From contig NZ_JAAABL010000024.1 in NCBI RefSeq assembly GCF_009900765.1, positions 1 to 52,621 of the forward strand: a stretch of DNA of 52,621 nt, written 5' to 3'. Position 1 is the stretch's first letter. Each line of letters opens with the position of its first letter. The notes beneath the pieces were generated by a model. The model worked only from the letters and a program-made list of their open reading frames with translations, was not told the DNA's origin and searched no databases. A program made the translations under genes and the position numbers. Below, in pieces: positions 35,039 through 46,892 of this stretch. This DNA is from Rhodovarius lipocyclicus. GTDB taxonomy: Bacteria; Pseudomonadota; Alphaproteobacteria; Acetobacterales; Acetobacteraceae.

Positions 35039-35114
35039 GCCCGGATAGCTCAGTTGGTAGAGCATGCGACTGAAAATCGCAGTGTCGCTGGTTCGATTCC
35101 GGCTCCGGGCACCA
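35039..35114 (+). tRNA. tRNA-Phe (GAA)
   Basis: The 76-base cloverleaf has acceptor GCCCGGA/TCCGGGC, anticodon loop CTGAAAA with GAA, T-loop GGTTCGATTCC and encoded CCA. Its last 16 bases serve as the attachment core for the integrated element at 35099-45977, which leaves the tRNA intact. Confidence 0.97.
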
Positions 35115-36264
35115 TGCATTTTGTAGTTCCTTTGTTATCAATAGGTTCTAGTTCGTTATTGTCCCACTTCAGCGTGCCAGCGCTGGGTGGGACTTTTTCG
35201 TTTGCGGCTGACGCCTGAGACAGCCGCGCCATAGCGCTGGCCGCCATCACACGCTGCGCTGCCGCCTGCGTGTACCGCTGCACCTCCTTTAGGGTCCGAT
35301 GGCCAGTGATGGCCATGATCTCATGTGCCGTCGCGCCGCGCTCCGCCAGGCGGCTCGCAGCCGCCTTCCGCAGGCCATGCGCGGAGCAGTGCGGGAGGCC
35401 AGCATCACGGCACCATTTGCGGAAGCGGTTGCCGAAGGAATCGGCCTGGAACGGGCCACCCCTTTCGCTCTCCAGGAAGGTCAGGCCGGTGGAAGGGCAA
35501 GCCTCGATGGCTTCCACCAGCTCCGACACTACGGGCAGGCTCAGCCGAACCGGCCGGCGCCGGCGGCCCTTCACTTGCGTGAAGCTGATCCAGCCGTCGC
35601 GCAGATGCTGGCGGCCCAGAGTGATGATGTCGCTGCGGCGCTGGCCGGTGTAGAGCAGCAGGGCAAGGGCGAGATAAGCCTTGGAACCCAAGGGGTGCGC
35701 TCGCTCGAATTGCTCGACCTCATCCACTGTCCAGGTGTGGTAGCCATCGGGGTTGTTGCTCGCGAGATAAGGCACGCGCAGCGCGGGGTTGGCGGCGATC
35801 TTGCCATTCGTCTCCGCTACGCTGAACACCGCGCGCAGGGCCTTCAGCAGGCCATTGGCGGCCTCGGGGCGGTCGGCCATGTCATCCCGGATCTTCAGGA
35901 AGTGCCGTCGCTCCATGCGGGCCGCAGGCTTGGTGCCGTTGGCGTCGCGGAACTTGTCCAGGATCAGGCGCTTCACATGCTGCGAGCGCGGGGCGAGGCT
36001 CTTGAAGCTGGCCGAGCTGTAGTAGGCGATACAGAAGTCATCGATGCTGCCTGGCAGCACGGTGCCTACCGCAGGCTTCCCACGCCCCTTCTTCGCCGGC
36101 TTCGCCTCCAGGGCGGCGCGATACTCGGCCTCGAATGCGTCCGTGCCAGGCTGCGCGCGCAGTCGAACCTTGGGCTTGCCAGGCACACGCAGGTAGACCC
36201 GGACGTTGCCGTGACGGTCAGCGTCCTGAACCACATACCGGTATGTGCGCAGCAGCTCGATCAT
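35050..36264 (-). CDS. int: Tyrosine recombinase/integrase reading through attL into tRNA-Phe
   Basis: The 404-residue phage-type tyrosine recombinase has catalytic R209 in YTGQRRSD, a beta-hairpin lysine about K232, H296-x-L-R299 in SAHGLRK, H322 in GHRT and nucleophile Y331 in EVQRYTQ. The N-terminal about 65 residues look like an arm-binding domain. The frame does not stop before the attachment core: the last about 20 codons are antisense tRNA-Phe, with the stop at 35050-35052. In the excised circle the tail would be different and shorter. The ATG overlaps the portal-HTH stop (ATGA), so its expression is coupled to the structural genes. Confidence 0.93.
   Translation of the reverse strand: MIELLRTYRYVVQDADRHGNVRVYLRVPGKPKVRLRAQPGTDAFEAEYRAALEAKPAKKGRGKPAVGTVLPGSIDDFCIAYYSSASFKSLAPRSQHVKRLILDKFRDANGTKPAARMERRHFLKIRDDMADRPEAANGLLKALRAVFSVAETNGKIAANPALRVPYLASNNPDGYHTWTVDEVEQFERAHPLGSKAYLALALLLYTGQRRSDIITLGRQHLRDGWISFTQVKGRRRRPVRLSLPVVSELVEAIEACPSTGLTFLESERGGPFQADSFGNRFRKWCRDAGLPHCSAHGLRKAAASRLAERGATAHEIMAITGHRTLKEVQRYTQAAAQRVMAASAMARLSQASAANEKVPPSAGTLKWDNNELEPIDNKGTTKCMVPGAGIEPATLRFSVACSTN
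35099..35114. repeat. attL core (direct repeat with attR)
   Basis: CCGGCTCCGGGCACCA is the 3' end of tRNA-Phe and recurs exactly at 45962-45977. The flanking bases differ on both sides, so the core is exactly 16 bp. Confidence 0.9.
35161..35199 (+). terminator. Intrinsic terminator inside int, facing the tRNA-Phe transcript
   Basis: GTCCCAC (35161-35167) pairs with GTGGGAC (35187-35193), with an inner CAGCG/CGCTG pairing, followed by TTTTT on the plus strand. It sits within the antisense of the integrase C-terminus, 46 bases beyond the tRNA, and would end host tRNA transcription before it enters the element. Confidence 0.75.
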
Positions 36265-37415
36265 GCATCGTCCCAGGGGTTCGGCGTCGCACCTTGCGCC
36301 ACGCGCTTATCCTCGATCCAGCCATCGAGGTCGGCCTTGTCCCATGCCTCTATCCCGGCCGTGACGCGGATCGGCGCCGGCATGCGCTCCGCGCGGCGCT
36401 CAGCATCGAAGGCCGAGGGCGACATGCCCAGGTAGGAGGCGGCCAGCTCGCGCCGGAGTAGGCGCGGCCAGGGCGCCAGGGTAAACTGGGCGAACCACCG
36501 GCCGGCCTCACGACTGTTGGTGAACGTGCCGTGGCTCAGATCCTGCACGATCGGCGGCGGCACCTGAAACAGGCGGCACATTTCCTCGACGGTGAAGCGC
36601 CGGCTGTTCAGCACCTCGGCATCCTCCGGGGAGACGCCGAAGGGCTGCCATTCTGCCCCCCCTTCCAGGATGAGGGCCTTGCCGGCGTTGTGCGTGCCCG
36701 CGAAGCCCTGGGTGAACTGCGTGCGCAGGCGCGTGAACATGTCCTGCCCCAGGGAGCCGGGGAACTTGATGGCGCCCGAGGGCGTCACCTGGTTGCGCCA
36801 CTGAGACCCGGTGAAGTCCTGCAGGGCGATGGCGCTGCCCAGCACTTCCCGCGCCCGGCTGATGCGGCTGCGGCCAAGCAACCCATCGTCGCTCCGGTCG
36901 CGGAGGTGGAATACCTCGCCTGAGAGGTAGCGGCGGGCCCGGCCGTGATCCTCCACCACGTCATAGACAAGGCGGCCGGACATGAGCTGATAGACCTGCA
37001 CCTTGCCCCAGGGCAGGGGGCGCAGCGCCAGCGGCCGGCCGGCGCCGTCATAGTCGATGGCCAGCACCGCGTTGCCGTGCAGAAGAACCTGCGCGACCAT
37101 CCATTCCATCATGTCCGGCCAGGTCTGATCGTCATTCGGGCGGATGGTCAGGCGCGTGACCGGGTGGTTGGGCAACTCTTCCCGCCCCTTGTCCACGATG
37201 CGGTAGACGCGGGGCGTGCAACTCGCCAGCACCGAGGCGATGGCGTTGATGCAGGCCATGACCGCCGCAAGGTTCATCTCGGCCGTGTGGGGGGTCACAT
37301 AATGGCCGGCAGCCGTGGGCGTGATGCCGAAGGCGGCGGCAAAGCCCGGCGGGCTGCTGCCGGCGCTGCGGGCCTCCTGGCGGCCCGTGAGGCGGTTCCA
37401 GGCGGAACGGATCAT
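36261..37415 (-). CDS. HK97-type portal protein fused to AlpA/excisionase-like helix-turn-helix
   Basis: The protein has 384 residues. Residues about 1-316 are a phage portal of HK97 type: N-terminal TPHTAEMNLAAVMACINAIA, LPWGKVQVYQ, EVFHLRDRSDDGLLGRSRI, GALEGG-like ILEGGAEWQPFGVSPEDAEVL, VEEMCRLFQVPPPIVQDLSHGTFTNSREA and FTLAPW. After W316 the usual portal C-terminus (LRGD...NEVR..ENLPP) is missing. Instead LLRRELAASYLGMSPSAFD, RMPAPIRV and EAWDKADLDGWIEDK follow, the pattern of small AlpA/excisionase-like DNA-binding proteins. The start at 37415 overlaps the protease stop (ATGA). This is either a deletion-made fusion or an assembly error. Confidence 0.85.
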   Translation of the reverse strand: MIRSAWNRLTGRQEARSAGSSPPGFAAAFGITPTAAGHYVTPHTAEMNLAAVMACINAIASVLASCTPRVYRIVDKGREELPNHPVTRLTIRPNDDQTWPDMMEWMVAQVLLHGNAVLAIDYDGAGRPLALRPLPWGKVQVYQLMSGRLVYDVVEDHGRARRYLSGEVFHLRDRSDDGLLGRSRISRAREVLGSAIALQDFTGSQWRNQVTPSGAIKFPGSLGQDMFTRLRTQFTQGFAGTHNAGKALILEGGAEWQPFGVSPEDAEVLNSRRFTVEEMCRLFQVPPPIVQDLSHGTFTNSREAGRWFAQFTLAPWPRLLRRELAASYLGMSPSAFDAERRAERMPAPIRVTAGIEAWDKADLDGWIEDKRVAQGATPNPWDDA

Positions 37416-37948
37416 GCCAGCACCTCCACCAGGCGGCGGCGCCACGCGGCCCCAGCCTGGCCCGCGCTGCGCGCCGCCACGCTGGTGCCCGCATAGGCCG
37501 GATGCGCTTGCACGATGCTGACTTCTAGCAGGTCCACATCCACCAGCTCGCGCTTGTCGGCCGAGGGCCACAGGTCACGCTTGGCGATGAAGCTGAAAGA
37601 CATGCCGCCCAGGTCGCGGCGCTCCGCCAGGGCCAGCATGTCGCGGCCCAGGGCGGTATCGGGCACGTCCAGGCTGAAGGTCAGCCCACGGCTATCGGCC
37701 GCCAGGCGCAGGGTGCCGGATGAGGTGCGCCCCAGCAGCCTGCCGGGGTCGTGGTCCACCAGGGCAAGAATGTCCGTGGCGGCGGCCAGGCTGCGCGAGA
37801 ACGCGCCCGGCTGGATGACTTCGGAGAAGCCGCCGATGCGGGCGGCCTCCCCGAAGACGGCAGCATAACCCTCCAGCTTCCGGCCCGCCGCCCGATATTC
37901 GGTGGCGAACCGGCGCTCGGTGCCGTTCGGGAAGCGGGCCGGGACCAT
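37412..37948 (-). CDS. HK97-type prohead protease (U35)
   Basis: The 178-residue maturation protease trims the capsid delta domain. It opens with RRFATEYRAAGRKLEGYAAVFGE and has the catalytic histidine in ALVDHDPGRLLGRTSSGTLRL and the serine in DLGGMSFSFIAKRD. The C-terminal VDVDLLEVSIVQAHPAYAGTSVAAR is the conserved family end. The start at 37948 overlaps the capsid stop (TGATG); the frame upstream of it is inside the capsid gene and not used. Length is normal. Confidence 0.92.
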   Translation of the reverse strand: MVPARFPNGTERRFATEYRAAGRKLEGYAAVFGEAARIGGFSEVIQPGAFSRSLAAATDILALVDHDPGRLLGRTSSGTLRLAADSRGLTFSLDVPDTALGRDMLALAERRDLGGMSFSFIAKRDLWPSADKRELVDVDLLEVSIVQAHPAYAGTSVAARSAGQAGAAWRRRLVEVLA

Positions 37949-39216
37949 CACGCGATGATGTCCGTGATGGCCGCGAAGGACTGCGGATGCCGCACGGCAA
38001 TATCGCAGGTCAGCATGGCGCGGATCTGAACATTGCCCTTGGCATAGGCGGTGGACTCGTAGGGGTTCACCAGGATGTCCAGCTCGGACCACATGCCGAT
38101 CAGCAGGTCGGACCAGTTGCCGTAAATCAGCGGCGACAGGCCGGTGCCGGTGCCCTTCGTCAGGTTCGACGGCACGTTGTTGCTGACGGCCGGCGGGCTG
38201 CCCTGGAACACCACGCTCAGCCCATAGGGGCGGTCCTGGCCATCCTTCAGCTTCCGCGCGGCCCGGACCACCTTCGTGTTGGTCAGGAAGCCCGTGCCGC
38301 TGGCGTTGGCGTCATCGAGCTGGCCCATCAGATCGGACACAGCATCGAGGGTCAGCGCCCCGCCGTTGGTGCCCAGGGCCACGCTGCCAATGCCCGAGGT
38401 GTTCAGGATGCCCCGAGGCTGGGCACCGCTGCCGCTGCCATTGATGGCGGCGCCGTCCAGCGTCTCGGCCAGCACCTGCGCCATGTCGTTGCGGGCGAGC
38501 GCCTCGACATCAGGCGAACTCTGCTGGGTCATGTTGCGCGACCATTCCATGATCGCGCCGGCGTGCTTGGGCGACAGGCCGATGCTCTCGAACTGCGGGT
38601 CTGAGGCGGTCAGGGCGGTGTTCTCGGCCACCCAGCCGGCCGTGACGCTGCCCTTGCGGCGCGGGATGGTGACGTTGCCGGTCAGGCCACTCAGCACCGT
38701 GGCGCCAAGGCCGCGCACGCGGGTGGTGTTCCGCAGGCGCTCGATGAAGAGGTCCGGCCGGTAGTCGGTCGGGATCAGCGTGCCGCCGGGCCCTCCGCCC
38801 GGGGTGGTGGTGGTCAGCACGCGGGACTCGGCGGGGGCGCCCATGTGCCAGAACACGCCCTGCGCCTTCCGGCCGGAGCGGCGCTCCATTTCCTGGCTCG
38901 CTTCGCGGGCGCGGCCGGCGGCCTGGTCGGTGCCGCCCATCTGCGCGCGGATGGCGTCCAGGATGCCGACGCCATCCAGAAGGGCGTCAAGCTGGCGATC
39001 CCCGGTGCCCAGCGGCTGGCCGGCCGCGCGGCGCTCGGCATCGTCCAGCACGGCCTGGCGGTCGATGCGAGTGTTCAGCGTGTCCAGCTCGCCCTTCAGC
39101 TTGTCGAACTGGGCACGCTGTTCGGTGTTGAGGTCGGCTTCGCCGGCGGCGTCGTGGATCTGGCGCAGCTCGGCAGAGAGGGCGGCGCGGCGTTCAAGAA
39201 GTGCGCGGAGGGTCAT
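37948..39216 (-). CDS. HK97-type major capsid protein
   Basis: The 422-residue major capsid precursor has an N-terminal delta/scaffold region (about 1-120) that is a charged helical coiled coil (ALLERRAALSAELRQIHDAA, DKLKGELDTLNTRID). The shell domain follows with GGTLIPTDYRPDLFIERLR, ATVLSGLTGNVTIPR, GWVAENTALTASDPQFESI, LDGAAINGSGSGAQPRGILN, FLTNTKVVRAARKLKD and DLLIGMWSELDILVNPY. These are the HK97 gp5 landmarks. The protease next to it would remove the delta domain. The start is shared with a 23-base overlap by the upstream small gene. Confidence 0.95.
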   Translation of the reverse strand: MTLRALLERRAALSAELRQIHDAAGEADLNTEQRAQFDKLKGELDTLNTRIDRQAVLDDAERRAAGQPLGTGDRQLDALLDGVGILDAIRAQMGGTDQAAGRAREASQEMERRSGRKAQGVFWHMGAPAESRVLTTTTPGGGPGGTLIPTDYRPDLFIERLRNTTRVRGLGATVLSGLTGNVTIPRRKGSVTAGWVAENTALTASDPQFESIGLSPKHAGAIMEWSRNMTQQSSPDVEALARNDMAQVLAETLDGAAINGSGSGAQPRGILNTSGIGSVALGTNGGALTLDAVSDLMGQLDDANASGTGFLTNTKVVRAARKLKDGQDRPYGLSVVFQGSPPAVSNNVPSNLTKGTGTGLSPLIYGNWSDLLIGMWSELDILVNPYESTAYAKGNVQIRAMLTCDIAVRHPQSFAAITDIIA

Positions 39217-39541
39217 CGGGCGCGGTCTCCAGGTAGGGAGAAGCCGTCGCGACCGGCGTTTCAGCGGAGCGCGCAGCGAGACGCTGGCGCAGCATGTGTG
39301 TGGCTTCGGTGAGCAGTGCTGTACGCTCCTGCCCAGGCCGGAAAATCACGCGATCATCCCCCCGGCGCGTATTCGGCGGCCGGAAGAAGAAGCTACCTCG
39401 GTCGCTGATGCAGAGGCGCATGCCCGAGATCACCAGCGGCCCGAATTCGACGGTCAGCCTTGCCACGTCAGACTGCGTGCCGGCGGGCGGCAGCGCGGTC
39501 AGCAGCGGCTCAAAGGCGACGATGGAGGGGGCGGAATTCAT
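39194..39541 (-). CDS. Uncharacterised 115-residue protein upstream of capsid
   Basis: The protein has a beta-rich middle (VARLTVEFGPLVISGMRLCISDRGSFFFRPPNTRRGDDRVIF) and a helical tail ending in Pro/Thr-rich sequence. The strand pattern faintly recalls SpoVG-like nucleic-acid-binding folds, but I would not assign it. The start at 39541 overlaps the upstream stop as ATGA and its end overlaps the capsid start by 23 bases, so it belongs to the structural operon. It could be a head-completion or scaffold factor. Confidence 0.6.
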   Translation of the reverse strand: MNSAPSIVAFEPLLTALPPAGTQSDVARLTVEFGPLVISGMRLCISDRGSFFFRPPNTRRGDDRVIFRPGQERTALLTEATHMLRQRLAARSAETPVATASPYLETAPDDPPRTS

Positions 39542-40281
39542 GCGTCCCCCCGGTGTTCAGCCAGGCGGTCCAGACCGGTCCGGATGGCCAGGCTGGCATT
39601 GATCTGGAGGGTGGCCAGCGCATTGCTGCGGGCGTTGCCGAATTCCTCGCGGATCGTCTTCCAGGTGGCGTCACCCTCAGGAGTGCCCCAGCCGCCGGCC
39701 TGGTCCACCGCAGCAAAAACGGTCTGAAGGGTAGCCTCGCTTCCCCGCTCCCAGCCCGTGATCCAGAATTCCGCGTCCTGGTTAGGCGTGGCCGGGGGCG
39801 GCCCGCCCAGGGGCCGGACGAAGCCGTAGCGCCGGTTCACAATCTCGATCACGACATCGTTGCTGTGCGTCTTGCCCGGCCGGTAGACGCCGGCACGGCA
39901 AAGCGCCTGGTGAAACCAATAGTCGTTACGAATGTCGTGATCGCGGGCCGAGAAGAAAACTCGGCCCGATGGGTCAAACTCCTTGAGCTGGGAAGGAATA
40001 AAACCGTAGGTCTGCTCCAATCCCTCCACTACAGCGTTACTCAGTCGCGCGGCAAGCAGCAGCTCGGCGCCGCCGGCATGTAGCGCACCGACAATGGCGG
40101 TACGGTGGAGGGCGCGGATATCGAAGAGCTTGGCGCTCCCCTCGATGTCGTCATGCTCCGCTTCCGGCAACAAGCCTTTTGCTCCCAAATACAACGCGTT
40201 ACGGACCGTCAGGCCCGCCGCCGAAGCCAGCTCCGCACTGGTGAAAAGCTCCGGCGGTGTGTCGCGGCGACGGCGTGCCAT
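39538..40281 (-). CDS. Protein with MerR-like N-terminal helix-turn-helix
   Basis: In this 247-residue protein, residues about 12-70 (FTSAELASAAGLTVRNALYLGAKGLLP, KLFDIRALHRTAIVGALHAGG) have the MerR-type winged-helix pattern. The remainder, with a charged region SQLKEFDPSGRVFFSARDHDIRNDYWFHQAL and a C-terminal helical part, matches nothing I know. An AGGAA ribosome site precedes the ATG at 40281. It is the first gene of the capsid operon, so it may regulate it, or be a capsid-size or redirecting factor as in known satellites. Both are guesses. Confidence 0.65.
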   Translation of the reverse strand: MARRRRDTPPELFTSAELASAAGLTVRNALYLGAKGLLPEAEHDDIEGSAKLFDIRALHRTAIVGALHAGGAELLLAARLSNAVVEGLEQTYGFIPSQLKEFDPSGRVFFSARDHDIRNDYWFHQALCRAGVYRPGKTHSNDVVIEIVNRRYGFVRPLGGPPPATPNQDAEFWITGWERGSEATLQTVFAAVDQAGGWGTPEGDATWKTIREEFGNARSNALATLQINASLAIRTGLDRLAEHRGDA

Positions 40282-40370
40282 GGTTCCTAGATTGCTACAG
40301 TAACTGACTTAAAGCACGTCGATGCGCCGTTCCGCAAGCTTTGCGATGGGGGCGGAGCCCTCAAAGGCAC

Positions 40371-40757
40371 CTAGGCGGCTGACCTCGGGCGCTGTTTCCG
40401 TTCGACGTCGCTGTGCTTCGCGAGATCGGCCAGCAGGGCCGCGTGGGCTTCCTCCTGGGTCGGGAGCGCATCCAGCGCAGTGGCACGCTCCCGAAACTCG
40501 ATATCGGTCTGGAACTTGGGCCGATGCCCGCTGGTGAACGCATCAAGTTCCCGCGCCCTATACTCCAGGAAGAGAGCAAACCATTCTAAAGCCTCTCTCC
40601 TTTCGCTGTTATCAGCGATGGTGGGGGCGAGCATGGAGAGTATCTGTGTGCCGTAGAGCAGCGGCGTTACGAAGGCATCGAGGTCGGCGGGATTGATGCT
40701 GCGGCGGCCGTGATATGTGTCGTCCGGCGCGGGCGTGCTATGGGCGCGAGTAGCCAT
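40371..40757 (-). CDS. Hypothetical protein
   Basis: The 128-residue mostly helical acidic protein includes RRSINPADLDAFVTPLLYGTQILSMLAPTIADNSERREALEWFALFLEYRARELDAF-type helices and a C-terminal Glu/Ala-rich helix. The start at 40757 (MATRAHSTPAPDD) is preferred over 40817. It is divergent from the ribbon-helix-helix gene across a 109-base regulatory gap with inverted repeats. I do not recognise it; position suggests a regulatory or early satellite function. Confidence 0.55.
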   Translation of the reverse strand: MATRAHSTPAPDDTYHGRRSINPADLDAFVTPLLYGTQILSMLAPTIADNSERREALEWFALFLEYRARELDAFTSGHRPKFQTDIEFRERATALDALPTQEEAHAALLADLAKHSDVERKQRPRSAA

Positions 40758-40837
40758 GATCCGAAAGCTCCAGCTTCGGGTTGAGGTTAGGCCGGGTGGG
40801 GAGCTGCTACTCCGCACTCGGCCGATGCTGGCAATCG

Positions 40838-40895
40838 ACCAACAATGATGGTAGATAGGTGAGGCGATGACGTCCCGTCAACTAGCATTGTTGGT
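40838..40895. promoter_or_regulatory. Operator-like 10-bp inverted repeat flanking the RHH start
   Basis: ACCAACAATG (40838-40847) and CATTGTTGGT (40886-40895) are perfect inverted repeats 38 bases apart. The start codon of the ribbon-helix-helix gene (40867) lies between them, and GGTAGAT follows both (40850 and 40893). This fits an autoregulatory site in the divergent promoter of the element. Confidence 0.6.
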
Positions 40896-41061
40896 AGATG
40901 ATAGCATGACAAGAACTGCTAGTATTGGAATTAGGGTTAAGCCCGAGCTCAAGGCTCAGATAGAGGCGGCGGCCAAAGCGGATGGGCGCACAATGGCTCA
41001 GTGGATCGAGCGCCTTATCGTTAGAGAGCTGCAAGCTATGACGACAGATGGCGACAAATGA
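40867..41061 (+). CDS. Ribbon-helix-helix (Arc/CopG-like) regulator
   Basis: The product is 64 residues, or 51 from the second ATG at 40906. The beta strand TASIGIRVKPELK is followed by two helices (AQIEAAAKADGRT and MAQWIERLIVRELQ), the classical RHH layout. The upstream start has GTGAGG in front and is preferred. It is one of only two plus-strand genes in the element and lies between operator-like inverted repeats, so it is probably an autoregulating repressor of the divergent genes. The surrounding DNA is clearly less GC-rich than the chromosome. Confidence 0.72.
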   Translation: MTSRQLALLVDDSMTRTASIGIRVKPELKAQIEAAAKADGRTMAQWIERLIVRELQAMTTDGDK

Positions 41062-41130
41062 CGCCGCAGCACTGGCGAATCGTATATTCAGTTTGCTAGG
41101 CCGCCTGCAGGGGAAGCAGGAGACTTAGAG

Positions 41131-41301
41131 ATGAGTTTAAAGGTTGGCGATATCGTAAAGCTTAATTCAGGTGGACCACTGATGACGGTGCATTCGGTGA
41201 ATCAGAGCAGTGGAGAAATTTGGATTAACTGCACGTGGTTTGGTAACGGTGAAGTTAACACCGCTGCATTTCTTCAGGATATGCTGAAGAAGCACAGTTA
41301 A
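41131..41301 (+). CDS. YodC-family (DUF2158) small protein
   Basis: The 56-residue protein begins MSLKVGDIVKLNSGGPLMTV, the YodC/DUF2158 opening, and ends with WINCTWFGNGEVNTAAF and LKKH. AGGAGA lies before the ATG. It is AT-richer than its neighbours. Members are small beta-barrel-like proteins frequent on phages and islands; their function is not established. It follows the RHH regulator by 69 bases, and a hairpin terminator follows at 41311. Confidence 0.8.
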   Translation: MSLKVGDIVKLNSGGPLMTVHSVNQSSGEIWINCTWFGNGEVNTAAFLQDMLKKHS

Positions 41302-41310
41302 TGCCGAAGT

Positions 41311-41350
41311 AGGCGAGAGGGCGGTTTCGATGGAGCCGACTCTCGCCTTT
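41311..41350. terminator. Bidirectional hairpin between yodC-like and terL
   Basis: AGGCGAGAG (41311-41319) pairs with CTCTCGCCT (41340-41348), followed by TT on the plus strand. It lies tail-to-tail between the YodC-like gene and terL, just after the terL stop. Confidence 0.7.
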
Positions 41351-42995
41351 ACCCTAGTACTAATCCGGTGAATTCAAAGCTCGGTGCCGGTGGCTCCCTG
41401 CTTGCCAGTCCCATTGCCATCACAGACGCGATCAGAGGATCAATCCGGCCGTGCGCCCGGGCCTTGGTCAGCTTCCGGTTCCCGGCCGGGTCGGTATCTA
41501 CAACGGCATTGCTCACCGCCCAGCGCAGCAGGGCGTTGCCACCGTGGCACAGCTCCTCCTTCAGCACGGCGGCCTCGAAGGCGTTGATGGAAGGGCTCAT
41601 ATCCTTGAAGCCCTGGCCATGCTCCTTCAGCGGCAGGGTCACGCCCTCGCGCTCCATCACCGCCTGCAGATCCTTCAAGCCCCACCGGTCATGCCCCACG
41701 GCGGCCAGCTCCAGGCCCTCCGTCTCTCGCGCGATCCATGTGACCAGCCAAGGGCGGTCGATGGCCCGACCGGGCATCGGCACCACCAGGCCGCGGTTGA
41801 TCCACTCGCGATAGGGCGCGCGGTCCTCCTGCATCTTCCGGTCCAGGTCGGCATCGGGCAGGAAGGCGCGCACGGTCAGCTTGCCCGTCTCCGGCCAGAA
41901 CAGGGCCAGCGCCGTCAGGTCGGCCGCACCAGAGGATAGGTCGAGCGCGCCATAGCAAGGCCCCCGGGCCTCGGCATCGCCCGAACAGGCGTCCCAGTCA
42001 TTCGCGTGAATGAAGCGATCATCGGGCGCGACCGGCTGATTCAGCGTGAAGGCCCTGAAGGACGCTTCCTTGCTGGGAACCCGCCTGGCCTGCATCGCCT
42101 GGCTTCGCACGTCCTCCAGGCTCCGGAAGTCCCCCAGCGCCGGGTTGGCCGCCGCCCAGGTTTCCTCTGCCCAGGGGTCAGCATCCAGGGGCGCGGTCCA
42201 CACGAAGGACCGAAAGGTGGGGTCGGGAATGGTGCCATCCGCCACGCCCTCGCCGTAGCGTAGCAGCTCTTCCAGGGGGTTGTTCGTGTCGGGCGAGCGG
42301 GTGGAGATGGCCAGCAGCAGCGACTCAGCGTGGGCGCCGGCGCCCGTCGCCAGGGCGTCGAACAGGTCGCGGCCGCGCCACTGCGCCACCTCATCCGCGA
42401 TGGCGAAAGTGGGTGACAGGCCATGCGCCTTGCGGGCATCCGCCGAAAGCGCGGCGAACACGCTGCCCGTCTTCACGTCCTCGACGGTGCGGTTGAAGTC
42501 GCGGAACACCAGCCGGTCGCGCAGCTGCGGCTGTTCCAGCGCGAAGGCGCGCAGCTCGGAATAGACCAGGCTCGCCTGGCCACGATCAGCCGCCGCCGAC
42601 AGCACCTGGCCGCGCGGCACCGCTTCCGGCCCACAGAGATGCGCGAGCGCGAGGGCGCCGGCGAGGCCCGTCTTACCGTTCTTCCGGCCCATGCTGATAA
42701 CGCCCGTGCGGACGATGCGCCGGCCATCCGGGCCGGTGGCATACAGCTCATGCAGGATCTCGCGCTGCCACTGGCGCATGACCAGCGGCTGCCCCGCCAG
42801 CGCGCCGGAGGTGACGTTCAGGCCCTCGATCCACCGAATGAGCCGTTCCGGACGCGATATGCCGGGTGCTTCCCAGTTGGGGCGGCCTGGCACGACATTG
42901 GTCCGGGGAGCGGTGACGCCCGAGACCGCAAAAAGGTCCGCTTTCGCCCCCTCTTTGACCTTGGGAGGCTTCGCGCCGGGGCCACGCTTACCCAT
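41349..42995 (-). CDS. Phage terminase large subunit
   Basis: The 548-residue packaging ATPase/nuclease has a Walker-A-like motif S101-M-G-R-K-N-G-K-T109 and Walker B FAIAD202-E203. The ATPase coupling region is followed by the RNase-H-like nuclease, with an acidic cluster in YGALDLSSGAADLTAL and the late acidic motif in GRIDPLIASVMA. The start at 42995 (MGKRGPGAKPPK) is preferred over 43022. Length is typical of HK97-type TerL. There is no small terminase beside it; the nearest upstream gene is the HNH protein, separated by 126 bases. Confidence 0.94.
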   Translation of the reverse strand: MGKRGPGAKPPKVKEGAKADLFAVSGVTAPRTNVVPGRPNWEAPGISRPERLIRWIEGLNVTSGALAGQPLVMRQWQREILHELYATGPDGRRIVRTGVISMGRKNGKTGLAGALALAHLCGPEAVPRGQVLSAAADRGQASLVYSELRAFALEQPQLRDRLVFRDFNRTVEDVKTGSVFAALSADARKAHGLSPTFAIADEVAQWRGRDLFDALATGAGAHAESLLLAISTRSPDTNNPLEELLRYGEGVADGTIPDPTFRSFVWTAPLDADPWAEETWAAANPALGDFRSLEDVRSQAMQARRVPSKEASFRAFTLNQPVAPDDRFIHANDWDACSGDAEARGPCYGALDLSSGAADLTALALFWPETGKLTVRAFLPDADLDRKMQEDRAPYREWINRGLVVPMPGRAIDRPWLVTWIARETEGLELAAVGHDRWGLKDLQAVMEREGVTLPLKEHGQGFKDMSPSINAFEAAVLKEELCHGGNALLRWAVSNAVVDTDPAGNRKLTKARAHGRIDPLIASVMAMGLASREPPAPSFEFTGLVLG

Positions 42996-43121
42996 CGGCT
43001 CCGCTCCGCATGACCGCCACAACCACCTGATTTTGGCCGAATTTCACAAAATCCGAACTAACTAAAAGCTGACTTGCCCTGACGGTCTGGCCCCCCCTTT
43101 GGAGAGATTTTGATGCGAGCA
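42996..43121. other. Gap between terL and HNH gene, possible packaging site
   Basis: There is no convincing gene in these 126 bases. They are locally less GC-rich (AAATCCGAACTAACTAAAAG) and end in a run of C. In HNH/cos-type phages the packaging site lies near these genes, so this is a candidate cos region, but no cos motif is identifiable by eye. Confidence 0.3.
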
Positions 43122-43430
43122 TCAGGGCTTCCCCCGGGTCGGGTTGAGGCCGTTCTGCGGCCTGTTCCACCAGTGCCCGGCCTGCCTCGGCCGCCCATCG
43201 GTGTCGCACCAGGCCCGAGGCTCACCACCCTGCCGCCGCTGGTTGTGGCATTGGGTGCACAGGCCGCGCAGGTTGGACGGGTGGTCCGCGCCGCCCTTGC
43301 TGCGCTGGAGGATGTGGTCCACGGCCACGGACTGGCGGCCACAGCCAGGCGTGCGACAGGTCGGGTCGCGCTTCAGCACGATGGTCCGAAGCCTGTGCCA
43401 TTCCTTGCTGCGATAGAACGGGTCGCTCAT
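43122..43430 (-). CDS. HNH endonuclease
   Basis: The 102-residue HNH nuclease has zinc-binding C25/C30 and C58/C61 pairs around the catalytic D38-H39 (AVDHILQRSKGG), N53 (PSNLRGLC) and H62 (CTQCHNQRR). Small HNH proteins next to terL stimulate cos cleavage by the terminase in HK97-like phages, and cf-PICI satellites carry one. The ATG at 43430 overlaps the stop of the preceding small gene (ATGA). Confidence 0.92.
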   Translation of the reverse strand: MSDPFYRSKEWHRLRTIVLKRDPTCRTPGCGRQSVAVDHILQRSKGGADHPSNLRGLCTQCHNQRRQGGEPRAWCDTDGRPRQAGHWWNRPQNGLNPTRGKP

Positions 43431-43630
43431 CTGCCCCTCCTGATGGTGCGTGCGAGGCGGCGCAGCTCGGCCAGCAGCTCGGACTTGTCGATGTGGAACT
43501 GTTCGGGGTCACGGTGGCTGGGCGACAGGCGGGCCAGCCGGGCGGCGATGCCCTCGATGGTATAGAGGGGGCAGGGGGGGGTAGGGTTCCCCGCTTCCTT
43601 TTCCATGCGTGCGCGCGTGTGGGCGATCAA
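43427..43630 (-). CDS. Small coupled protein between primase-helicase and HNH
   Basis: The product is 67 residues from a TTG that overlaps the primase-helicase stop (TTGA), or 59 from the ATG at 43606 (MEKEAGNPTPP). The sequence is helical and basic: YTIEGIAARLARLSPSHRDP, FHIDKSELLAELRRLARTIRRGR. Overlaps on both sides show that it is translated with its neighbours. It could stand in for a small terminase or a DNA-binding adaptor, but it is shorter than known TerS proteins. Function unknown. Confidence 0.6.
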   Translation of the reverse strand: MIAHTRARMEKEAGNPTPPCPLYTIEGIAARLARLSPSHRDPEQFHIDKSELLAELRRLARTIRRGR

Positions 43631-45834
43631 TGGTCTGACCCCGCCCTACCGCGCCCCCCTGCCCCCCATTGGTCGGACTCGGAGGGTCGCAGCCCGATAC
43701 CTCGCACCAAGCGGTCGCCACGCACCTTGGCGTAGCGCAGGCCGGGCGTCCGCTCGATCATGCCGCGCAGACGGCGGTTGTCGCTGTCCGGCTCCCCGTT
43801 CTCACGGCACCATTGCTGGAAGCTGGACAGAAGGTGCGTCGGCTTGGTGAACAGGGTGTCGTCAAGGATGCAGCATTCGGCCAGCCAGCGTCCGAAGTGG
43901 TCTTGCACCTCGAAATACTCATCCGTGGCGGCCTGCACCGCTGCCGGCCGGGTCAGGCCCTCGGCCTGCCATGCCATGCAGCCCTCGATCATCCAGGCGA
44001 GGATGGCGGGCCATTCGTCCCGCAGCTTGCTCTCCAGCTCGCGGTCAGGCGTGGCGGGCTGATGGAGGAAGGGCACGATGTTGAAGCGGCGCTTGGCAGC
44101 ATCATCCACGTTCTTCAGCACCGGCTTGTGGTTGCCCACGAGGGTCAGCTTGAACTGCGGCGTGAAGGTGAAGAAGTCCTGCCGCATAAAGCGCGCGGTG
44201 ATAGGGTCGCCGCCCGTCATCTGCTTGATGCGCGACTCAGCCCAGGCCCGGCCTTCCTCGGTTTCCGTGGCGGTCACCAGCCTGGCGCCGCGCAGCATCG
44301 CCAGGTCGGTCGGGTGCTTGTCGCCCAGGGAGGCGGTGAAGGTGTCCATGGCCGCCACGACGGCATAATCGCCCATGATGCGCGCTACGGTGTTGAGGAA
44401 CACGGACTTACCGTTGCCGCCCGGCCCATAGCCGAACAGCAGGGCGTGTTCCTTCGTGTCGCCCGTGAGGCAGTAGCCGCACCAGCGCTGAAGGAAGGTC
44501 GCCAGCGCAGCGTCGTGGCCGGTTGCTTCATCGAGGAAGTGGAGCCAGCGCGCCGGCGGGCCACCCTGGCGGTCGGGCCCCACGGCGGTGATGCGGGTCA
44601 TCATGTCCGCAGGCTTGGCATGGCGCATGCGGCCCGTGCGGAGATCCACCACACCGCCAGGCGTGGCCAGCAGATAGGGGTCAGCATCCCAGGCTTCGCT
44701 GGTGACGGCATGAGCGGGGTCACGCTGGGCGAAGCGCTCGACCCCGCCGGAGAAGGCAGCGCGGCCGGTGATGGCCTTCGCCTTCATGTCCGCATCGCGG
44801 TTGGCGTCGGCCGTCACTTCGCGCGCGAAGCTGAAGGCGGCATGCTTACGATCGCGCTGCCAGTGGGTGCCGGTCCACTGGAACCAAGCCCCGGTGTCGT
44901 GACAGTAGCGGAGCTGGTCGCGGAAGCGCTCGGTGAATGCCATGGCCACCCCGTGTTCGGTCAAGAGGGTCGGTTCGCCGGAGGTCGGCTGCTGGCTGGG
45001 AGTTTCGGCCGGCGCCGCCCGCGCGGCCGCGTCCGCCAGCTTCATAAGGGCTTCGGTTGTGCCGCCCGCAGTGACCCAGTCCGACACATCGCCCTTCGGG
45101 GGCAGGTCGGGCAGATCGATGATGCGGACGCTCTGGGCGCCGGCCGTCTGGGCGACGGCGGCGGCATGATCGCGGCCAGCCTGATCGTTGTCAGGCAGGA
45201 TGATGATGTGCCGGCCTTTGAGCCAGCGCGCGAAGCTGGCGCGCCATTTGCCGGCGCCGCCTGGGTTGCAGGTCGCCACCAGGCCGAGACCGCGCAGCCG
45301 GTCCACGTCCTTCTCGCCTTCCACAATGAACACGGGCACGTCCGTGGGCGCGGCGAGCAGCTCGGGCAGGCGGTAGGGCACCAGCTCCACCCCCTTCACA
45401 CCCCATAGCCACCCGCCCTTTCCGTCCGGTCGGCGCTGCCTGAAGTCCTTCGGGTCGTGGCGGGTAACCTGGAACAGCAGCTCGCCATCGGCGCTGATGT
45501 AGTCGTAGGCGGCCACCAGCTTGCCAAGGCGAGCGCCGCCCCCGTGGGACTGCTGCCGCTTCTCGGGCTGGGCCTTCTGAGGCCCGTTGAGCCATTCGAC
45601 GGCGGCCGCCTTGTCGAGGTCCAGCTTCCACTGCACCAGGTCCAGCACGCCGCCGCCCCGGTTGGCCTCATGGTCGAACCATGTGCCAGCGGCTTGCCCG
45701 TGAAGGCGAACCACCAGGCTGCCGCGACTTCCGAAGCGCATTTCATCGCGGGAGGACAGCTGCTTGTTGGGCTCGCCCAGCAACTGGCGCGCTACGGGCC
45801 CGATGAGGGCTTGGTAGGGAACACCGTCAGGCAT
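43627..45834 (-). CDS. TOPRIM primase / P4-type superfamily 3 helicase
   Basis: The 735-residue replication protein has an N-terminal primase-associated region (1-110), a TOPRIM domain with V171-E-G-E-K-D176 and D215-N-D217, a linker about 270-300, a D5/P4-like N-terminal helicase domain, and an SF3 ATPase with Walker A G470-P-G-G-N-G-K-S477, followed by TATETEEGRAWAESRIKQMTGGDPITARFM and LTLVGNHKP. A C-terminal winged helix is likely (FQQWCRENGEP). It primes and unwinds element DNA, so the element can replicate autonomously. Similar proteins are typical of P4-like and PICI satellites. Confidence 0.93.
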   Translation of the reverse strand: MPDGVPYQALIGPVARQLLGEPNKQLSSRDEMRFGSRGSLVVRLHGQAAGTWFDHEANRGGGVLDLVQWKLDLDKAAAVEWLNGPQKAQPEKRQQSHGGGARLGKLVAAYDYISADGELLFQVTRHDPKDFRQRRPDGKGGWLWGVKGVELVPYRLPELLAAPTDVPVFIVEGEKDVDRLRGLGLVATCNPGGAGKWRASFARWLKGRHIIILPDNDQAGRDHAAAVAQTAGAQSVRIIDLPDLPPKGDVSDWVTAGGTTEALMKLADAAARAAPAETPSQQPTSGEPTLLTEHGVAMAFTERFRDQLRYCHDTGAWFQWTGTHWQRDRKHAAFSFAREVTADANRDADMKAKAITGRAAFSGGVERFAQRDPAHAVTSEAWDADPYLLATPGGVVDLRTGRMRHAKPADMMTRITAVGPDRQGGPPARWLHFLDEATGHDAALATFLQRWCGYCLTGDTKEHALLFGYGPGGNGKSVFLNTVARIMGDYAVVAAMDTFTASLGDKHPTDLAMLRGARLVTATETEEGRAWAESRIKQMTGGDPITARFMRQDFFTFTPQFKLTLVGNHKPVLKNVDDAAKRRFNIVPFLHQPATPDRELESKLRDEWPAILAWMIEGCMAWQAEGLTRPAAVQAATDEYFEVQDHFGRWLAECCILDDTLFTKPTHLLSSFQQWCRENGEPDSDNRRLRGMIERTPGLRYAKVRGDRLVRGIGLRPSESDQWGAGGRGRAGSDH

Positions 45835-45961
45835 GTGCGGCGTCCTGCCAAGAAATCAGGTCTTGGAGTGGGACACCTTCAATGCTAGAAGTAGCAATAT
45901 CAAGAGGTTGGGAAGCATCCCACTTTCCGCTAACTACTTGGATTTGCGGGTGCGAATAGCC
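45835..45961. promoter_or_regulatory. Element right end with paired inverted repeats
   Basis: These 127 bases lie upstream of the primase-helicase gene and inside the right attachment core. GTGGGA-CA-CCTTC (45868-45880) and GGAAG-CA-TCCCAC (45911-45923) form an interrupted inverted repeat, with TGCT/AGCA nested inside. The GTGGGAC heptamer also occurs twice at the left end (35161 and 35187), so these are candidate integrase arm sites. The primase-operon promoter must also lie here. Confidence 0.5.
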
Positions 45962-45977
45962 CCGGCTCCGGGCACCA
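45962..45977. repeat. attR core
   Basis: An exact copy of the 16-bp tRNA-Phe 3' end (CCGGCTCCGGGCACCA) marks the right boundary of the integrated element. No other tRNA-like sequence is around it. Confidence 0.9.
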
Positions 45978-46006
45978 CTCCCCATCCCTCCTCCGGCCAT
46001 TCGCGG

Positions 46007-46588
46007 TCAGTCGATCATCGGCACCACGAAGATGCCGCCGATCACCACGGCCATCAGCAGCGCGAAGCTCAGCTTGCCGTGCCGTTCCATGAAGTCCGAG
46101 GCCTGGTCCCCATAGCGCTGGCACAGCCACGCGATGAGGAAGAAGCGCGATCCGCGCCCGATGATGGAGGCGAGGATGAACTTGCCCATCCCGAACTCCA
46201 CGGCCCCTACCGCGATGGCGACCACCTTGTAGGGAATGGGCGTCAGCCCCTTCAGCGCGATCGCCAGAAAGCCCCAATGGGCCGCGTGTTCCTTGAACGT
46301 CTCGAACGCGCCCATGGCGTCGTAGAATTCCAGGATGGGCACGGCGGCCAGATGGAACAGCTCCCGCCCGACATAATAGCCCAGCACCCCGCCGCCCACG
46401 CTGGCCAGCGTGCAGACCAGGGCGAACCACATCGCCTTTTGCCGCTGCGCCACGCACATGGGCACCAGCAGCAGGTCGGGGGGGATGAAGAAGATGCTGC
46501 TCTCGGTGAAGCTCAGCCCCGCCATCCACCAGGTGGCCTTGCGGGAGGAGGAGAGAGCGAGGAGCCGTTGGTACCAGGAGGTGAACAT
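46007..46588 (-). CDS. YqaA-like (DedA/VTT superfamily) membrane protein
   Basis: The 193-residue inner-membrane protein has several helices and the conserved small-membrane-protein pattern WWMAGLSFTESSIFFIPPDLLLVPM, GGGVLGYYVGREL, KGLTPIPYKVVAIAVGAVEF and ILASIIGRGSRFFLIAWLC. The start at 46588 (MFTSWYQRLLAL) follows AGGAGGT. Members are linked to lipid or ion transport and envelope homeostasis. It is the first host gene to the right of the element, with its stop 30 bases past attR. Confidence 0.88.
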   Translation of the reverse strand: MFTSWYQRLLALSSSRKATWWMAGLSFTESSIFFIPPDLLLVPMCVAQRQKAMWFALVCTLASVGGGVLGYYVGRELFHLAAVPILEFYDAMGAFETFKEHAAHWGFLAIALKGLTPIPYKVVAIAVGAVEFGMGKFILASIIGRGSRFFLIAWLCQRYGDQASDFMERHGKLSFALLMAVVIGGIFVVPMID

Positions 46589-46892
46589 GAACTCCGCTTT
46601 GCCGGTAGGCTGCCTGATCACCAGGCCGTGAGATTCAGAGAGGCTGGCATCAGCCGACGCAACTCTCCACTCAATAGTGACGCTTGCAAGCCGCTGCATG
46701 GGATTCCGTGCGAGGATTCGGCGAAACCGTCGCCGCCGGGCCAGGCCGGAACACGGTTTTCATGATGAGGCATTCATATGTGGAATCTCCCCTTGGCCTC
46801 TGTGCCATGGCGGGCATGACCAATTCCTTGCCGGTGGCGGGCATGGCCTGCCCGCGCTGGCCCGGCGGCGCCCCCTCTGCTACAGCCCTTGC
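46589..46892. other. Divergent intergenic region, yqaA-like / hldE
   Basis: This stretch of 304 bases has no convincing gene. It must contain both promoters. It holds a repeated GCCGGTGGCGGGCATG-type sequence near 46820-46860 and a short AT-rich block (CATTCATATGTGGAAT, about 46770). No riboswitch or terminator is recognised. Confidence 0.4.

Follow-up and report, generated by a model that had tools for sequence, protein, structure and literature searches.

An element inserted at a tRNA-Phe gene in Rhodovarius lipocyclicus

The window analyzed here, namely the whole stretch of 52,621 nucleotides from contig NZ_JAAABL010000024.1 of the alphaproteobacterium Rhodovarius lipocyclicus, contains an integrated mobile element of 10.9 kb (35099-45977) that encodes phage-type head and packaging proteins. 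Its two ends are marked by the last 16 bp (3' end) of the tRNA-Phe gene in which it resides, repeated without a mismatch. This gene, tRNA-Phe(gaa), was identified by ARAGORN on the plus strand at 35039..35114; its final 16 bases form the attL core, CCGGCTCCGGGCACCA (35099..35114, +), which is repeated exactly as the attR core, CCGGCTCCGGGCACCA (45962..45977, +). Across 100 dinucleotide shuffles the core obtained a mean of 0.01 matches at no more than one mismatch, and two matches never occurred. An empty site is preserved in a genome of the same genus (G253), where the tRNA-Phe gene is present with both its flanks and the element is absent: the left flank aligns with the window from 35114 leftwards at 77%, and the tRNA end and following bases align with 45962-45997, and next in G253 is hldE, at 83%. 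Hence, att repeats, an adjacent integrase, and an empty site in a relative, which together mark a tRNA-integrated mobile element, are all found at this locus. These results bear out an earlier account made from the letters alone (the sequence-only reading), which had placed exact 16-bp cores at both ends and an integrase beside tRNA-Phe.

The integrase open reading frame (ORF) ends within the antisense of the tRNA-Phe gene, with its final ~21 residues read from 35050-35115 on the minus strand; as a separate observation, this stretch is matched at tRNA-Phe in all eight of the other same-genus genomes. A further genome of the genus (locus L202, G215:C49) carries a 64% identical integrase in tRNA-Phe, and none of the other element genes found a match there in the 16 kb fetched. 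Between attR and hldE, the window also has a gene for a VTT-domain membrane protein (46007-46699, -; score slightly below the Pfam cut-off) that is absent at the G253 site and has no match in eight other same-genus genomes at an E value of 0.001.

Gene content of the element

Starting from the attR side, the minus strand encodes in succession a primase-helicase, a small ORF, an HNH endonuclease, the large terminase subunit (TerL), three small proteins, the major capsid protein, the prohead protease, a portal-excisionase fusion, and the integrase. The primase-helicase (43627..45834) is of the D5 type, with D5_N and DUF5906 domains (PF08706, 7.4e-31; PF19263; phrog_6088, 2.4e-143). It is followed by a small conserved ORF (43427..43630), with homologues in the same place in relatives, and by the HNH endonuclease (43122..43430; PF01844; phrog_589), which also matches phrog_4581, a family labelled "terminase small subunit" (E 1.1e-11), alongside many HNH families. 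TerL (41349..42995) is recovered by PF20441 (2.7e-35) and PF03354 (2e-16). The head proteins comprise an HK97-fold major capsid protein (37948..39216; PF05065, 1.8e-43; phrog_617), an S78 prohead protease (37412..37948, start approximate; PF04586, 5e-40; phrog_80), and an HK97-type portal without its C-terminal part (36483..37418; PF04860, 1.3e-73), to which an AlpA/excisionase domain (36261..36482; phrog_66 and others) is fused in frame. The tyrosine integrase (35050..36264; PF00589, 1.9e-22; phrog_1) lies directly after this fused gene. The PHROG scans agree with the Pfam assignments, and the two together confirm the primase-helicase, HNH, TerL, portal, protease, and capsid genes named in the sequence-only reading. 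That reading recognized the block and missed two small plus-strand genes lying within it, between TerL and the head genes: one for a ribbon-helix-helix protein (40867..41061), a possible repressor with matches to HicB/RHH-type Pfam families, and one for a small DUF2158 protein (41131..41301; PF09926, 2e-12).

The three small proteins between TerL and the capsid are less readily classified. The first, of 148 residues (40371..40817), has no family match and weak homologues. The second, of 247 residues (39538..40281), adopts a MerR-type DNA-binding fold according to both Foldseek and VIA-align, and divergent counterparts, several of them visibly DNA-binding, precede the capsid in many relatives. 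A transcription regulator and a small terminase subunit (TerS) are not distinguishable by this fold; on its predicted structure, the protein is the best candidate for either an activator of the late genes or a substitute for TerS. The third, of 115 residues (39194..39541), has homologues in the same place in some relatives, and its weak fold matches (Foldseek E 0.26-0.31) are suggestive of a SpoVG-like protein. Beside the head genes no tail module or tape measure was recognized in the 10.9 kb, nor was a lysis gene recognized among the window proteins scanned with Pfam and PHROG.

A recurrent tail-less block in Alphaproteobacteria

A portal profile recovered 41 loci in our genome collection and 178 in IMG/VR, 80 of which were kept, giving 121 loci in all. 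By label, Alphaproteobacteria or groups within them account for 36 of the 41 genome-collection loci; the labels of the remaining five are Nitrosovibrio, Clostridia, Burkholderiales, and Deltaproteobacteria, all four of them metagenome bins, and Pseudoxanthomonas. Related elements built on this block turn up at tRNA-Phe, as the sequence-only reading had suggested looking for, and also at other tRNA genes, in Roseomonas, Rubritepida, Acetobacter, Gluconacetobacter, and others. This recurrence supports that reading in proposing an alphaproteobacterial, satellite-like element, capsid-forming and tail-less, which is best taken as a parallel lineage. The arrangement that prevails across the 121 loci runs from primase through HNH, (connector), TerL, DNA-binding protein, capsid, protease, portal, and excisionase to integrase, with not every gene matched in every locus. 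In 73 of them (27 of the 41 genome loci and 46 of the 80 viral contigs), no more than 1 kb separates the portal from the integrase that follows it; of the remaining 48, 21 stop within 1.5 kb of the portal with no integrase, 19 have no integrase match, six have the integrase farther away, and two lack a long portal match. These counts, like those of head-gene order and of TerL given below, may include IMG/VR contigs from the same genome as another locus (e.g., L081/L140, L069/L111).

The relatives are also bounded in the same manner and are of similar size. In 25 genome loci, the integrase side holds a tRNA or tmRNA gene. Att repeats of 14 bp or longer are present in 21 of these and delimit elements of 8.7-11.3 kb; in the other four, the sequence on the side that matters extends for just 3.9-6.5 kb. 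Counting loci identical across the two collections only once (e.g., L048/L073, L051/L077, L052/L081) and including the window element and two further ones, 24 elements measure 8.7-11.3 kb from core to core, with a median of 10.5 kb, a spread that takes in the less secure cores of L099 (16 bp) and L102 (14 bp) as well as those of L057 (17 bp) and L058 (19 bp). Five loci in which no integrase was matched near the portal (L087, L093, L100, L102, and L104; L075 and L082 lie outside this set) are likewise att-bounded, at 10.1-11.3 kb, the core of L102 being only 14 bp. Free forms of the same size exist: four IMG/VR relatives of 9,992-10,743 bp (L123, L132, L136, and L165) overlap exactly at their two ends by 105-127 bases, a pattern that usually signals a circular assembly, and are therefore read as circular. 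In addition, 48 of the 80 IMG/VR stretches fetched measure 8.0-11.6 kb. The tight clustering near 10.5 kb would fit a limit set by head size. Compared with 50,697 phage records, the portal has only best matches below 60% identity, the highest among those listed being ~36%; the same holds for plasmid records (below 60%, the highest among the matches listed ~38%), several of which are 16-kb records.

Two further features were seen among the relatives. A conserved ORF of ~160 residues with a twin-arginine-like N-terminus lies between TerL and the capsid in L051, L054, L058, L077, L079, L080, L081, and L084, and its L077 copy has no PHROG match. The att-bounded locus L064 (G203), at tRNA-Ala, combines a related integrase and excisionase with a 648-residue ORF that by eye looks like a fusion of a ClpP-type protease and a capsid protein.

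Tail and connector genes in the relatives

We listed 224 unassigned ORFs from 37 elements, the list being made up of those not overlapping assigned genes, and scanned 126 of them, from 35 elements, against PHROG, with minus-strand and some short plus-strand ORFs excluded. Of these, 122 were rescanned as two sets (20 of 20 and 25 of 27 families shown) and the remaining four, which are long, singly. Tape-measure, tail-tube, and tail-terminator proteins are absent from the families shown for the 126 ORFs, which instead match connectors, replication proteins, and regulators. The 35 plus-strand unassigned ORFs of the five loci without a matched integrase near the portal yielded integrases, excisionases, replication proteins, and adaptors, and none of the same three tail families among the best 25 of 47 families. 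Overall, 17 of the 21 att-bounded tRNA-linked loci were profile-scanned in part, and none of the 17 shows a tail module. A match to a "virion structural protein" was traced to the head-closure ORF of L179. The connector families phrog_442 and phrog_40 each occur in five of the 126 ORFs; single-ORF scans place a head-tail adaptor after the portal in L105, L158, L166, L179, L185, L187, and L100, and the Acetobacter farinalis relative has a weak connector match (phrog_1161). The presence of an adaptor after the portal in several relatives fits the docking of a tail.

Gene order and phylogeny of the head and packaging genes

For comparison, we used four records that resemble capsid-forming phage-inducible chromosomal islands (cf-PICIs), namely the Escherichia coli PE15 island near fis (NZ_CP041628), Escherichia phage vB_KppS-Ant (LR881103), Pasteurella phage Pmp8 (OR544139), and the head genes in Klebsiella phage PQ569648; the label "cf-PICI-like" is our reading of their gene content, not the records' own. 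By a scripted count, capsid, protease, and portal follow one another in this order in 113 of 120 family loci, five others being unreadable; an apparently reversed order in L103 and L139 proved to be an artefact of overlong ORFs, as their matches sit in the usual order. The family shares this order with the four cf-PICI-like records, while the reverse order is seen in all 14 readable of the 21 phage/prophage rows of the portal tree (seven have unreadable gene order, and 13 of the 21 are same-family genome loci taken as prophages). In that tree, the 21 phage/prophage rows form one clade (support 98) and the four cf-PICI-like rows another (support 100), and the family falls outside both; the first portal tree needs two changes for the family, whose unity as one clade could not be rejected (p 0.705). 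The TerL tree groups 30 family rows in a single clade (support 97) beside HK97 and away from three cf-PICI-like rows. The capsid tree does not recover the family as one clade (four changes), which indicates that the head module is mosaic. The comparators in these trees were picked by similarity to the family and are thus an uneven sample, in which the cf-PICI-like rows are all gammaproteobacterial and cf-PICIs of Firmicutes are not included. The portal and protease profiles of the family score the cf-PICI-like records above any phage record compared, clearly for the protease and narrowly for the portal.

A probable satellite that makes its own head

Taken together, these observations make it probable that the block is a phage satellite in integrated form, with a head of its own making and no tail module, which obtains its tail and the means of lysis from a helper phage. 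Under this proposal, the integrase and the AlpA-type excisionase would release a circle of ~10.8 kb, which the D5 primase-helicase would replicate. HNH and TerL would then cut the DNA and fill a head, built from the element's own capsid, protease, and portal proteins, with a single genome length, and the MerR-like protein would either switch on the head genes or tag the DNA of the satellite so that TerL recognizes it. The tail and lysis functions and, in the subgroup to which the window element belongs, probably the connectors too would come from a tailed phage, either resident or incoming. The host genome has exactly two loci of the capsid family, the element itself and a prophage on contig C1 (~130000-170000; L061, L062), which is HK97-type with tape-measure and distal-tail genes and is a possible helper.

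Several findings weigh against this interpretation, one of which concerns the portal of the window element. The 436-residue "portal" ORF consists of a C-terminally truncated portal (approximately residues 1-312 when counted from 37418) and the in-frame AlpA/excisionase domain. The portal profile stops short of the C-terminus and the final ~70 residues match AlpA/excisionase-type families, with phrog_66 and others covering residues ~364-427 of the 436. In a search of 250 genomes with a 385-residue version as the query, 11 other portals of at least 50% identity matched only residues 7-340, and many standalone small proteins matched mostly residues ~307-385. All 13 relatives that were aligned possess the C-terminal part missing here, and the alignments of two solved portals span it as well; relative to its nearest portal relative, L068, the fused gene lacks roughly 250 bp. 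Portal and excisionase are separate matches in the relatives wherever both are found, and the excisionase of the window exists solely as part of the fusion. The most likely explanation suggested by these alignments is that a deletion removed the portal C-terminus and joined what was left to the excisionase. A portal of this kind would probably be unable to form a working packaging vertex. The missing C-terminus and the in-frame fusion are thus the reason for regarding this copy as probably impaired, most likely within a family that is intact elsewhere. The sequence-only reading, which took the motifs to be intact apart from the portal, had accordingly caught a hint of this oddity and overstated the state of the structural genes, not all of which are intact.

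Other such points concern genes that would be expected and were not recognized. The Pfam and PHROG scans of the window proteins gave no TerS, in agreement with the sequence-only reading, which had noted the absence of small-terminase, tail, and lysis genes from the ~10.9 kb, and they gave no head-tail connector. A divergent TerS, such as the MerR-like protein, may be present. Similarly, among the 57 relatives whose sequence extends 4.5 kb or more upstream of the capsid, 11 that carry capsid, protease, and portal, including L068, L073, L083, L129, and L138, have no TerL match to the family profile; these may use the terminase of a helper or encode a TerL that is too divergent to be seen, and a weak match to a different TerL family (phrog_13702, 4.1e-6) came from one unassigned ORF. 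Two of the circular relatives, L132 and L136, and the near-circular L115, all IMG/VR contigs of ~10 kb, have no recognized integrase. Lastly, a few isolated ORFs resemble tail fibers. One among 71 ORFs of L119-L187, L123, L132, L136, L165, and L115 matches the "tail fiber protein" family phrog_12296 (E 3e-24), a match that was not found again in the 20 of those ORFs scanned singly; one from the five loci without a matched integrase near the portal matches the "tail fiber protein" family phrog_1980 (5.8e-8); and one relative's ORF weakly matches "central tail fiber J" (6e-5).

Relationship to known satellites and alternative explanations

Satellites with their own heads have been described before. 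The available text of one report defines cf-PICIs by a gene set of capsid, protease, portal, connectors, HNH, and the large and small terminase subunits, without tail genes, has them rely on a helper's tail and package their genomes into small capsids, and describes them as widely distributed across Bacteria (PMC10690885); from what is available of two others, their capsids fall into three distinct radiations (PMC11389934) and their mean size is 14 kb (PMC10803314). Like the family described here, PE15 and Pmp8 combine an integrase, a primase, an HK97-type capsid of their own, an S78 protease, a portal, HNH, and TerL, and the cf-PICI-like records lack a tail module, with isolated annotations only (one "tape measure" in Ant and one "tail terminator" in Pmp8). 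Unlike the window element, in which neither was recognized, PE15 and Pmp8 have TerS and two connectors, and Ant has TerS and a connector. The HK97/HK022-type phages, which are the nearest TerL relatives among the phage records listed (~37% identity), are in contrast full tailed phages of ~40 kb with the order TerS-TerL-portal-protease-capsid. The Streptomyces phage satellites MulchRoom and MiniFlayer, compared here by their description, also have their own capsid and packaging genes, and virions of MulchRoom bear tails of the helper's length; however, the accessible part of that description gives them direct terminal repeats, virulent helpers, no obvious replicase, and Actinomycetota hosts (PMC10690885). 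P4, PICI, PICMI, and PLE are small integrated helper-dependent elements, most of them of similar size, but as presented in the available portions of the literature they take their capsids from the helper (PMC11389934, PMC10803314).

These comparisons bear on whether the family simply represents cf-PICIs in the strict sense, newly encountered in Alphaproteobacteria, as the sequence-only reading had entertained. Such an assignment would account for the element's own capsid, protease, portal, HNH, and TerL, for the lack of a recognized tail, for the capsid-protease-portal order seen also in the E. coli and Pasteurella examples, and for the profile scores mentioned above. We nevertheless regard it as unlikely. 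Of the genes listed in the consulted portion of the definition (PMC10690885), TerL and HNH are present in the window copy, whereas neither TerS nor connectors of its own are recognized. Moreover, HNH-TerL lies upstream of the capsid, not at the far end as in PE15 (~16 kb), where TerL sits at the end opposite the integrase; both TerL and portal belong to clades separate from the cf-PICI-like ones, with TerL grouping with HK97 (Firmicutes cf-PICIs being outside this comparison); and the size of ~10.5 kb falls short of the 14-kb mean given in the accessible text (PMC10803314). At the level of the family, the interpretation as a satellite is largely right, and the strict cf-PICI label is not supported. 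The resemblance is likeliest to mean that one design was put together separately, by convergence or very long ago, rather than that a gammaproteobacterial cf-PICI was transferred.

The broken portal might instead point to a tailed HK97-type prophage of the ordinary kind, reduced to a remnant once deletion had removed the genes for its tail and for lysis. The sequence-only reading had itself named the circumstance that would favor such a remnant, that close homologues always lie within tailed prophages. This is not what was found: 21 of the 25 tRNA-linked relatives are att-bounded at 8.7-11.3 kb, 17 of them, profile-scanned in part, revealed no tail module, and four relatives are circular. The same tail-less block of ~10.5 kb recurs in many genera, free circular contigs of that size exist, the order of the head genes differs from that of the readable tailed phages and prophages, and the phage/prophage portals form a clade of their own (support 98). 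As judged from these sequences, decay of a tailed prophage is largely refuted for the family and, as an account of the block, scarcely credible. Another way to dispense with a helper's tail would be an autonomous or differently dispersed particle, resembling a gene transfer agent or equipped with an unrecognized entry device; a tail would be unnecessary if entry differs, and the tail-fiber-like ORFs of a few relatives could be read in this light. Isolated fibers would not suffice for a tail, though, and no lysis gene was recognized. Portal-type dsDNA heads are known to deliver their DNA through tails, and the head-tail adaptors of several relatives speak for tail docking, so that we hold such a particle to be quite improbable.

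Evolutionary and biological implications

Returning to the helper-dependent satellite, we tentatively propose, as a scenario that may well be wrong in some of its parts, that an old, largely alphaproteobacterial lineage of capsid-forming elements arose from an HK97-type terminase independently of the gammaproteobacterial cf-PICIs. Its genomes could have been held near 10.5 kb by a small head, its HNH-TerL pair guided by the MerR-like protein in place of a small terminase, and some of its members could depend on the connectors as well as the tail of the helper. In the literature searched, which was covered in part, we found no description of an alphaproteobacterial capsid-forming satellite. If the interpretation holds, head-making satellites would be extended to a bacterial class for which we found no earlier description, and an apparently separate origin would be added for the same solution. 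Acetobacter and Roseomonas are culturable, and with members of the family in both, helper choice, assembly of small heads, and packaging without TerS become directly testable. More generally, many of the "viral" contigs of IMG/VR, where 178 carry a related portal, may be satellites of this kind and not phage fragments.

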